A stretch of DNA of 64,000 nucleotides from Oceanicaulis sp. HTCC2633 (GTDB lineage Bacteria; Pseudomonadota; Alphaproteobacteria; Caulobacterales; Maricaulaceae). A program made the position numbers and the translations under genes. The notes under the pieces are model-generated. The model worked only from the letters and a program-made list of their open reading frames with translations. It ran no database searches and had not been told where the DNA came from. The number at the start of each line of letters is the position of its first letter. The stretch's first letter is position 1. Location: contig NZ_CH672428.1 in assembly GCF_000152745.1 (NCBI RefSeq), positions 2,061,327-2,125,326 of the forward strand, written 5' to 3'. Shown here in pieces: positions 60,575-64,000 of the stretch.

Positions 60575-62677
60575 ATGCGGAATCTGCTTGGAAGCTCACT
60601 TGAAAAACAGGCGCTTGAACAGGCGATCGACGCCGTCGTCACCATTGACCCGAACAACAGGATCATCTTCTTCAACGCCGCCGCCGAGCAACTCTGGGGG
60701 CTCAAGCGTTCGGAAGTCATGGGCCAGAACGTCAAGATTCTGGTGCCGCCCCATTTGCAGGCGGGTCATGACGGGCTGATCAACGCCAACCGGCAGGGCG
60801 CCAAGGACAAGATCGTCGGCACTTCGCGCGATATCGAGCTTGAACGCCGTGACGGCGTGAAACTCTGGGTCAATCTGGCGCTGTCGCGGGTGAAAAGCGG
60901 CTCGAAGGTCTATTACACGGCTTTCGTGAAGGATGTGAGCGCCGAGCGCGAAGCGCGCGAGACGACACGCCAGATCCTGGACCAGGCGCTGGACGCCGTC
61001 GTCTCCATCAACGACCAGAACATCATCACCTATTTCAATCGCTCCGCCGAGCAGTTGTGGGGTTATGAGGCGGACGAGGTGGTCGGCCAGAACGTCAAGA
61101 TGCTGGTGCCCCGGGAGTTCCGCGCCAATCACGACACCTTCGTCAACGCCAACCGCACGACCGGCCAGGACAAGATCGTGGGGACGTCCCGCGATGTGGA
61201 GATCGAGCGCAAGGATGGCGAGCGGATCTGGGCGAACCTGTCACTCTCCAAGGTGCGCGCCGGCGAGAAGATCTTCTACACCGCCTTCGTCAAGGACATC
61301 ACCGAACAGCGTCGCAGCCGGGAGACCATCACCCAGACCCTGTCCCAGGCGCTCGACCCCGTGGTCACCATCAATGCGCGCAATGAAGTCACCTTCTTCA
61401 ACGCCGCGGCGGAACGCTTCTGGGGGTACAGGGCCGAGCAGGTGCTGGGTCAGAACGTGAAGATGCTCGTCCCGTCCGAAATCCGGGACAAGCACGATGA
61501 TTATGTGAACGCCAACCGGACCACGGGGGTGGACAAGATTGTCGGGCGCTCGCGCGAGGTGCTGGTGGAGCGCGCGGACGGCCAGCGCGTCTGGGGCTCG
61601 CTGTCGCTGTCCAAGATCCGCGTTGATGGCGAGGTGTCCTACACCGCCTTCGTCAAGGATGTGGACGCGGAGGTCCGCAATCGCGAGCAGTTCAAGCTCT
61701 TGTCCCTGGTGGCCGACGAGACGGACAATCTCGTCATCATCACCGATGCCCAGGGCCTGATCGAATACGTCAATCCGGGCTTTGAAAAGCTGACCGGCTA
61801 TACGTCCGAAGAGGTGATGGGCCGCAAGCCGGGCGAGTTCCTTCAGGGGCCTGAGACCAGCGCGGAGACCCGCGCCAAGATCCGCCAGCAACTGCATGCG
61901 GGCGCGCCCTTCTATGACGAGATCCTGAACTACACCAAGTCGGGCGAGCCCTACTGGATCTCCATGTCGATCAACCCGGTGCGCAACGACGCCGGAGAGC
62001 TTGTCCGCTTCATCTCCGTTCAGGCCAACATCACTGACGTCAAGCTCAAGGCCAAGGAGTTCGAGACCCGCATGGCCGCGATCACCGAATCCAATGTCGT
62101 GCTGGAATGGGCGGCGGATGGCGCGCTCACGCAGGGCAATGACAAGCTCAATCAGGTGATGGAGCGGATCGGTCTCAAGGACCGCAAGACGATGTCGCTG
62201 GACGCTCTGTTCACGTCTGAACAGGTCGAGCAGATGAAGCGCGGCCAGACCGTGACCGATGAGATCATGGTGAAGGGGGAGCGGGATACCGCCTGGCTCT
62301 CGGGCGCGGTCCAGGTATTGCTGGGCTTTGGCGGACGGGTGGAGCGCTTCACCATGTACGCCACCGATTCCACGGCCCAGAGAAAGGCCAGCGCCGAGAC
62401 CCGGACGATTGTCAGCGGCGTGCTCGAACAGGTCAGCAAGATGGCGGAAAGCCTGCGCGACATTTCCGAACAGACCAATCTTCTCTCGCTGAACGCCAGC
62501 ATCGAGGCGGCGCGTGCGGGTCAGCATGGCGCGGGCTTCGCCGTGGTCGCGACCGAGGTGCGGGAGCTGGCGGACCGCTCGTCCAAGTCGACAGACGAGA
62601 TCGCGCGCGTGGTGGTCTCCACCCAGGCCAAGCTCACCGAGCTGGAGCAGGGCAAGGGGCTGGACAAGGCGTCCTGA
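60575..62677 (+). CDS. Soluble multi-PAS chemoreceptor-like sensor
   Basis: A 700-residue cytosolic protein without membrane helices. Three near-repeats with a 121-residue period (about 18-122, 138-242, 259-363) are PAS domains, each with GQNVK-LVP and a His-Asp followed 20 residues later by Arg (H65/R85, H186/R206, H307/R327), the spacing of the haem ligand His200 and Arg220 in FixL. PAS4 (about 375-490) is LOV-like ([10 protein letters not shown]) but lacks the photoactive Cys. A degenerate PAS-like stretch precedes a short MCP tip, [27 protein letters not shown] supports the start. Gas or redox sensing is inferred. Confidence 0.82.
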
Positions 62678-62747: not shown

Positions 62748-64000
62748 CTAGAAGCTCGCCTGGACCCCCAGGGTGAACACATTGGTGCTCGCATCGCTTT
62801 CCGACCAGCTCTCGCCCGTGGGCAGATTGCCGCCGGACAGGAAGTTGAGCGGCACCCAGCCTTCGGTCCGGATCAGCTCGCCGAAGAGATTGACCGACGG
62901 GCTGATGAAATAGGATCCGCCCAGAACCCACTGGTCCTGCTTTTCCCAGGGCGCGCCGTCATCGCCGGACACAAAGCGGCTGAATTCGAACGACACCGCG
63001 AAGTCCTCGGTCGCGTTGAGGTCAAACCAGTAGCGACCGCCCAGGGTGAAGGCGCTCGGCGCCACGGCTTCGAACGCAGAGTAGATCGGCACCGGCGAGG
63101 CCGTGCCCGGCCAGTCCTCGGTGGTCGCCGCATACTCGCCCAGCAGTTCGAGCCGGCCCAGATCCGCCTGGGCATAGACGGCCCAGCCCGGATTGTTGTC
63201 GTCGCACGGATTGAAGTGGAAGACCGGATAGGCCTGGCAATAGGCGGTGGCCTCGGTATAGCTCGCGCCCGCCATCAGGGTGCGGCCCTCGGCCAAAGCG
63301 GCGGTGTAGTTCACGTCCACCGCGAAATTGTTCACCCGGCTGGGGACATTGGTGTCCTCGACCGGAGCGTTGTGGGCGCGGAATTGCGAGCCGCCCTGGA
63401 TCGCCATGGCGCGCACGTGCAGGCCATTGTTGTAATAGCCGACCATGCCGCCCGTCGCGAGACCGGCGAAGGCGTGCCAGTTGGTGGAGTTGGTGAACGG
63501 GCTGACGGTGTCGTTCAGGCCGAAGGGCGTGTCCATCTTGCCGATGGCGGCGTACCAGGGGGTGCGCTCGAGATCGCCGAACAGCACGAAGGCGCGGCGC
63601 AGCTGGATCTGGTTGCGGTTGAGATCGGTCAGCGTGCCCGACCCGAAGCTCTGCTCGGGATCGTAGAGCATTTCCGAATACAGCGTGATGGAGTCCGTCA
63701 TCCGGCCGGTCACGGCCAGCTGGGCGGAGTGCACCACGAATTCCGACACCGTCTCGCCGATCTGGTTGGCCGAGGTCGGGTGCCGCATCAGCCAGCCGAA
63801 CTTGGTGTTGGAATTGCTTTCCTGATAGTTCGCCAGCGCAGTGACATCCCCGCTGAGGGTGACGCGGCGATCGAGCTCGCCATTGCGCGCGGCGTTCAGG
63901 ATGGTCAGCGGGCGGGTGTTCACGCCTTCGGCGTGATCAAGCACCTGATAGCCGTATTCAGGGCTGATCCCGACCAGATTCTGATGGAAGTCATCGCCAT
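62748..64000 (-). CDS. Outer-membrane beta-barrel protein, 5' truncated
   Basis: The frame is open to the right edge, so the N-terminus is outside the window; at least 416 residues are visible. It has alternating strands such as LRRAFVLFGDLERTPWYAAIGKMDTPFG, HVRAMAIQGGSQFRAHN and GGRYWFDLNATEDFAVSFEFSRF, and ends VFTLGVQASF with terminal Phe, as in outer-membrane porins. A Cys pair (YCQAYPVFHFNPCDD) may form a disulfide. Transport substrate is unknown. It converges on the sensor gene over a shared terminator. Confidence 0.75.
   Translation of the reverse strand, partial: GDDFHQNLVGISPEYGYQVLDHAEGVNTRPLTILNAARNGELDRRVTLSGDVTALANYQESNSNTKFGWLMRHPTSANQIGETVSEFVVHSAQLAVTGRMTDSITLYSEMLYDPEQSFGSGTLTDLNRNQIQLRRAFVLFGDLERTPWYAAIGKMDTPFGLNDTVSPFTNSTNWHAFAGLATGGMVGYYNNGLHVRAMAIQGGSQFRAHNAPVEDTNVPSRVNNFAVDVNYTAALAEGRTLMAGASYTEATAYCQAYPVFHFNPCDDNNPGWAVYAQADLGRLELLGEYAATTEDWPGTASPVPIYSAFEAVAPSAFTLGGRYWFDLNATEDFAVSFEFSRFVSGDDGAPWEKQDQWVLGGSYFISPSVNLFGELIRTEGWVPLNFLSGGNLPTGESWSESDASTNVFTLGVQASF

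Follow-up and report, generated by a model that had tools for sequence, protein, structure and literature searches.

Haem-binding PAS domains are found in FixL, a histidine kinase, and in Escherichia coli DosP (EcDOS), which has one haem-type PAS domain and ends in an enzyme part. Chemoreceptors can also carry such domains. The Aer2 proteins are chemoreceptors that sense O2 and have tandem haem PAS domains, three in Vibrio vulnificus and two in V. cholerae, together with HAMP domains (PMC13401364, in part). Because both the triple and the dual Aer2 have been described, the concept of a multi-haem chemoreceptor is already known. IcpB of Azorhizobium caulinodans, a cytoplasmic receptor for aerotaxis, has a haem PAS domain at its N-terminus (PMC13401364, in part); it is described as relatively simple in domain composition, and we liken it to our receptor by description only. 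The same holds for BdlA and McpS of Pseudomonas aeruginosa, in each of which an unusually short MCP domain is combined with two PAS domains that are predicted to bind FAD (PMC8694187, in part).

The receptor described here combines elements of these systems. It was found in a window of 64,000 nucleotides from Oceanicaulis sp. HTCC2633, whose genome assembly comprises 3 contigs and 3.17 Mb with a completeness score of 100%. The features of the locus, in window coordinates, are the following.

60575..62677, + strand: whole gene, encoding a 700-residue soluble chemoreceptor-like protein (coordinates, length and frame all verified)
60599..60958, + strand: PAS repeat 1, residues 9-128, with His65, Thr83 and Arg85
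60767..60769, + strand: codon of His65, predicted proximal haem ligand
60962..61321, + strand: PAS repeat 2, residues 130-249, with His186, Thr204 and Arg206; AlphaFold2 model with pLDDT 91.8
61130..61132, + strand: codon of His186, predicted proximal haem ligand
61325..61684, + strand: PAS repeat 3, residues 251-370, with His307, Arg325 and Arg327; aligns together with PAS4 to DosP PAS-A/PAS-B
61493..61495, + strand: codon of His307, predicted proximal haem ligand
61700..62044, + strand: PAS4, residues 376-490, LOV-like fold without Cys
62063..62371, + strand: PAS5, residues 497-599, predicted degenerate PAS domain, delimited by AlphaFold2 secondary structure
62372..62674, + strand: chemoreceptor hairpin tip, residues 600-700, with arms of about 50 residues and no methylation helices
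62697..62726, no strand assigned: 13-pair hairpin in the interval that separates the receptor gene from the convergent porin-like gene; the scan lists it as a terminator-like site of the - strand

The protein had been predicted to be soluble, and a peak 19-residue mean hydropathy of 0.78 agrees with this, as no stretch is hydrophobic enough for a membrane helix. Pfam and NCBIfam detected four PAS stretches and the MCP hairpin, whereas the AlphaFold2 model of the full protein, built with 37 aligned sequences, contains five PAS folds followed by a long helical end. With a mean pLDDT of 81.8 and a pTM of 0.40, the individual folds of this model can be trusted but not their mutual arrangement. Foldseek matches to the full-length model were at the domain level, the long alignments having large r.m.s.d. 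The nearest named relative, from Oceanicaulis sp. MMSF_3324, is 89% identical across the whole protein. By eye, the flanking genes read as truB, pnp, a peptidase and a porin, of which the peptidase and the porin, rather than che genes, adjoin the receptor on its two sides. Close matches to all four occur at the related locus L013, and to truB, pnp and porin but not the peptidase at L014. The porin-like gene (62748-63944, - strand) is convergent with the receptor gene, and close matches to it lie near the receptor in both of these relatives. Between 60380 and 62800, the terminator scan found 2 sites against 1.8 expected in shuffles, and the promoter scan found none against 0.3 expected. FNR-type boxes with two mismatches numbered 17 in the window against 13.5 expected, none of them directly upstream of the receptor gene.

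The tandem arrangement put forward in the original prediction is borne out in detail. The His-Asp pairs stand at residues 65, 186 and 307, exactly 121 residues between successive ones, and each is followed 20 residues after His by an Arg (85, 206 and 327), a spacing equal to that of His200 and Arg220 in FixL. The RKDG-like segments (RRDG, RKDG and RADG) and the YTAFVKD segments are likewise found in the repeats. Gapless pairwise comparison of the repeats gives 62, 68 and 73 identical residues out of 121 (51-60%), and the triple HD..R motif at this spacing never appeared in 20,000 residue shuffles of the protein. All three repeats contain Asn at His+7, Ile at +15 and Leu at +36 and +38. Together with the Arg at His+20, the hydrophobic distal positions resemble those of FixL/DosP-type haem PAS domains; for some distal-pocket residues of the repeats we presume the roles. 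Those of the others are taken from PMC4263535 (in part).

The original prediction had proposed structure prediction and alignment with known haem PAS domains as a check, and for repeat 2, the one repeat modelled singly, the closest fold was indeed that of DosP and FixL. In the PDB sequence search with repeat 2, the top 13 sequences were all DosP or FixL (E 4e-32 to 1e-20), with DosP as the first and FixL as the second solved relative, twelve orders of magnitude before the next match, 10jx (E 1e-8), which is titled as the haem-binding PAS of FG214. With the repeat-2 model, ranks 1-33 in Foldseek and ranks 1-23 in VIA (Z 16.8-19.9) were all haem PAS domains, the first other chain in VIA being 3lyx (Z 15.7). 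The model superimposes on oxygen-bound EcDOS (1vb6_B) with Z 19.9 and 1.1 Å across 110 residues, and on FixL (8js5_F) with Z 19.2 and 1.4 Å over 125 residues at 34% identity. His59 of the model lies in helix 53-69, the position of the F-alpha His, and His65, His186 and His307 align without gaps on the haem-ligand His of DosP.

The comparison with DosP extends beyond a single domain. DosP was the best PDB match of the receptor, residues 255-497 aligning to residues 25-266 of the DosP chain over both PAS domains and the linker (E 2e-47). The FixL likeness originally proposed thus fits as regards the type of haem PAS domain, but among solved relatives EcDosP PAS-A/PAS-B, and not FixL, comes closest. 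Proximal His, distal Arg and the Asn at His+7 are common to DosP and the receptor, whereas at the position of DosP Met95 (His+18) repeats 1 and 2 have Thr and repeat 3 has Arg. DosP also has one haem-type PAS domain instead of three, and the receptor ends in a chemoreceptor tip instead of an enzyme part. Unlike FixL, the receptor has three repeats and no kinase domain in the Pfam scan. The family models agree with these differences, as the scores remained below the cut-offs for the DosP equivalog NF008467 (452.7 bits; cut-off 857), the FixL equivalog NF041777 (240.1 bits; cut-off 850) and the Aer2 equivalog NF041847 (70 bits, from the tip only; cut-off 1200). Aer2 resembles the receptor in being a chemoreceptor whose haem PAS domains, two or three in number, stand in tandem (PMC13401364, in part), but its haem PAS domains belong to an unrelated PAS cluster with the His placed elsewhere, whereas the repeats are of the FixL/DosP type, cluster 3 (PMC10468136, in part). 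The HAMP domains of Aer2 have no counterpart among the Pfam matches of the receptor up to E 0.01.

Behind the repeats, the predicted domain set of a LOV-like PAS domain and a tip was found as expected, except that a fifth PAS domain between them had been overlooked. PAS4 is LOV-like without the adduct-forming Cys, as predicted, with GRKPGEFLQ in place of the GRNCRFLQ segment; indeed, it cannot have this Cys because the whole protein contains no Cys. Gln of FLQ, Asn of LNY and the late Gln are retained, residues for which we assume the roles that they have in LOV domains. A flavin-binding LOV domain is unlikely, as substitutions affect the Cys, its flanking residues and the Asn of FWN. PAS5 probably has a PAS fold, judging from the AlphaFold2 model, in which its strands lie between residues 508 and 598 and the block has a pLDDT mostly of 87-92. 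By sequence it matched nothing in the PDB up to E 1, and its identity is the lowest of all domains against both near relatives, 77% for L013 and 39% for L014.

Homologs provided the main test of the haem pocket. The genome scan returned 92 relatives, of which 80 were retained. Among 134 FixL-like repeats in 85 homolog ORFs, a count that omits the window protein (L001) and the apparent second copies of L013 and L014 (L009 and L010) and includes one repeat of L012, both His and Arg are kept in 132, and all of these 132 have Leu at +36 and +38. In the two exceptions, the first repeat of L065 and the second of L059, the His, the Arg and the intervening stretch are lost together, while the neighbouring repeats are intact. 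One repeat alignment had pre-selected HD-bearing repeats, and its invariant His is partly a result of that choice; the count of 132 in 134 is free of it. None of the 62 named His-repeat proteins (L001 and L009-L012 left out) was found with an HD-bearing search peptide as its sole pattern. As a control, we took 27 FixL-like PAS domains from further proteins of the same bacterial family, the best-scoring hits of a profile with His fixed and those to which loci had been assigned; His is present in all 27 and Arg in 16, which makes His alone a weak haem marker. The full pocket set, kept together in 132 of 134 repeats, appears to say more than His alone. Eleven FixL-like PAS domains (L136, L140-L143, L146-L148 and L150-L152) keep the His with the distal Arg replaced (GQRIEI and similar).

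Position His+18 is Thr in 94, Ser in 28, Lys in 4, Arg in 3, Gln in 2 and Ala in 1 of the 132 repeats. Substitution of Ala, Leu or Ile for Met95 of EcDOS lowers the Kd for O2 from 20-21 µM to below 1.5 µM (<0.73 µM for M95A, 1.4 µM for M95I and 20-21 µM for the wild type in Table 1 of PMC4263535, seen in part). Carried over from EcDOS, Thr or Ser in 122 of 132 repeats would predict a higher affinity for O2, with a five-coordinate ferrous haem and a Kd closer to 1 µM than to 20 µM. Within its own genome, the repeat profile gave one further, much weaker match (L099, E 1e-14). Neither L099 nor L098, the best FixL-like kinase of the genome, has an HD..R motif by eye, which leaves the receptor as the only clear FixL-type haem candidate found there. 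L098 (C1:2193580-2194689, - strand), which has the top FixL-model score of the genome, is a PAS-PAS histidine kinase that adjoins a gene reading as a FixJ-like response regulator.

Proteins like the receptor are present in many other bacteria. A full-length match at E 1e-60 was found in 3 of 15 genomes of the genus, and family-wide in 4 of 137, the fourth with a partial match. Most of the named loci are from gammaproteobacteria; others come from beta- and alphaproteobacteria and from Bacteroidota. Three intact repeats occur in nine of them (L013-L018, L060, L065 and L066), and two in most others. In L065, from Oceanobacter mangrovi, a degenerate repeat and three intact ones lead directly into a short tip and leave no space for PAS4 and PAS5, which shows that the repeats can be joined to such a tip without these domains. 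In a tree of 84 repeats from 37 proteins with DosP as the outgroup, all 37 last repeats fall into one clade of 48 tips (support 0.86), along with 11 earlier repeats from seven proteins that have three or more. Repeats 1 and 2 of the window protein group with repeats that come first in other proteins, in clades of 17 (support 0.82) and 18 (support 0.76). As to the order in which the repeats were duplicated, the tree is no more than suggestive. Against L013 and L014, dN/dS is 0.05-0.24 for the repeats, 0.06-0.14 for the tip and below 0.45 for every domain, the highest values being 0.44 for PAS5 against L014 and 0.11 for repeat 1 against L013. Repeat 1 is 86% identical to its counterpart in L013, compared with 95 and 94% for repeats 2 and 3, and 68% in L014, compared with 75 and 73%. 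With the receptor and three large clusters resembling its antisense reading frames set aside, the widest of 25 listed neighbour clusters were found at 11 of 92 loci, mostly relatives of Alteromonas and Marinobacter. On a Salinivibrio kushneri plasmid, the homolog L105 has an FAD-dependent oxidoreductase gene on one side and two YeeE/YedE genes on the other, and a second PAS chemoreceptor is encoded past these.

The short tip without methylation helices, also part of the original prediction, was confirmed. The MCPsignal match (PF00015, 88.4 bits; cut-off 34.6) is confined to positions 32-101 of the 172 in the profile, and the chain ends 51 residues after the hairpin glycine. Of 18 chemoreceptors in the genome, 17 could be measured (rows of neighbouring genes counted once); in the other 16, 119-318 residues follow the glycine, and the short tip is unique to the window protein. 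Among homologs, the hairpin is present in 61 of the 62 named His-repeat proteins counted without L001 and L009-L012, the exception L064 having no tip as its reading frame reaches the end of the available sequence. The glycine is followed by 46-67 residues in 54 of them, exactly 50 in 29 of these, and by 128-174 in 7. A short tip in 54 of 61 proteins points to a conserved architecture rather than local truncation or decay, and the receptor would be best filed as a tip-only protein rather than a methyl-accepting one.

Whether the tip talks to CheA is less directly indicated. The residues that we take to be equivalent to Tsr N381, E385, R388, F396 and V398, with the roles presumed for these, are kept in the window protein and in 35-37 of 37 aligned proteins. 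The Oceanicaulis hairpin has diverged, however, to GQHGAGF. Gln replaces Glu at the first and Ala replaces Arg at the fifth changed site, positions that are usually fixed and have E and R in 30 and 32 of 37 aligned proteins; the other measured tips of the genome read G(E/D)AG(K/R)GF. Coupling to the host CheA is thereby made less certain. A single CheA is encoded in the genome, and genes next to it read as CheW, CheY, CheB and CheR. We located che genes near homologs by BLAST with queries from this genome and a plasmid. The Bacteroidota homologs L060 (Agaribacillus) and L066 (Pseudochryseolinea) have genes similar to the CheY, CheB and CheA of Oceanicaulis within about 1 kb downstream, and the betaproteobacterial L061 is followed by CheR and CheB genes, but all three carry full-length tips, not the short one. 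On plasmid pHP-187 of Marinobacter adhaerens, the gene directly downstream of L104 is annotated as a chemotaxis protein and was read as CheV. L104 itself is annotated as a PAS domain S-box protein, with a start that falls inside a repeat. The predicted signalling through CheA without usual adaptation is thus favoured by the conservation of the short tip and by the che clusters of the three homologs, although their tips are full-length, and it stays a prediction. We consider CheA a likely partner of the receptor, and the absence of adaptation is probable.

Other readings of these data have to be weighed against a multi-haem receptor. If the His-Asp/Arg pair were structural, the repeats could bind another ligand or none; 11 of the 27 control domains do keep His without Arg, and Xing et al. 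infer, rather than show, haem for the His-bearing 60% of the PAS cluster (PMC10468136, in part). The pocket positions are, however, conserved together and lost together, and the closest solved relatives are all haem proteins; we regard the absence of haem as very improbable. Haem might also be bound in some repeats only, the others serving for dimerisation or as spacers and owing the motif to their ancestry. The three haem PAS domains of V. vulnificus Aer2 differ in their signalling role (PMC13401364, in part), repeat 1 is less conserved than repeats 2 and 3, and each of two homologs has one repeat without the motif. Such a division of labour seems unlikely, as every checked pocket residue is kept in all three repeats of the window protein and the loss of the motif elsewhere is both rare and total. 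The tests that could be run thus favour haem PAS domains of the FixL/DosP type, as the original prediction of a multi-haem sensor requires, although His alone is a weak marker and haem is predicted. The haem reading as a whole is well supported but not proven, and at least one repeat very likely binds haem. If so, O2 is quite likely to be the main ligand.

The output could differ from chemotaxis even with haem in place. A tip that docks on other proteins in the manner of BdlA or McpS might set a biofilm or c-di-GMP state. BdlA acts in biofilm dispersal and McpS has a negative effect on chemotaxis, and these PAS-PAS proteins have the shortest MCP domains of PAO1 (PMC8694187, in part); DosP itself is a c-di-GMP phosphodiesterase (PMC4263535, in part), and no other measured chemoreceptor of the genome has so short a tip. 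Yet comparable PAS arrays with full-length tips adjoin cheA or cheB/cheR, and the kept hairpin residues are, in the roles that we presume for them, those that contact CheA/CheW and form trimers. We therefore find an output of this kind distinctly unlikely, and we favour, as fairly likely, a soluble gas receptor with several haems, whose ligand is most probably O2 and which works via CheA/CheW arrays without adaptation.

In this multi-haem receptor, each N-terminal PAS repeat would bind one haem b via the F-alpha His, and the Arg at His+20 would hold the bound O2 as do Arg220 of FixL and Arg97 of EcDosP. Repeat 3 and PAS4 might act as a DosP-like PAS-A/PAS-B unit, from which ligand-dependent changes would pass through PAS4 and PAS5 to the two-stranded hairpin, whose tip would insert into CheA/CheW arrays. 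As the arms are too short for methylation sites, we propose that the receptor's output would follow the absolute level of O2, not the change in it. A bolder and rather doubtful extension is a non-adapting, graded oxygen meter, in which three DosP/FixL-type haems in one chain, their distal pockets tuned differently by Thr, Thr and Arg at the Met95 position, would widen the O2 range and the tip-only output would let the array read absolute O2 and not its change, the two-repeat form having come first and the third repeat having been acquired on several occasions. Were this so, the proteins would constitute a separate class of chemosensory receptor.

In summary, the protein is well conserved and is probably an O2 receptor that joins several haems to a minimal chemosensory tip. 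The concept is known, but the combination is probably new; among the matches listed in the open-access literature, judged by titles and abstract openings, we found no study of DosP/FixL-type repeats in a tip-only receptor. In many marine bacteria, the family would couple a DosP/FixL-type haem sensor to a chemotaxis output through a conserved tip for which no adaptation is expected. Such proteins might offer a simple system for the integration of several haems per chain and for the function of arrays with a receptor free of methylation sites.
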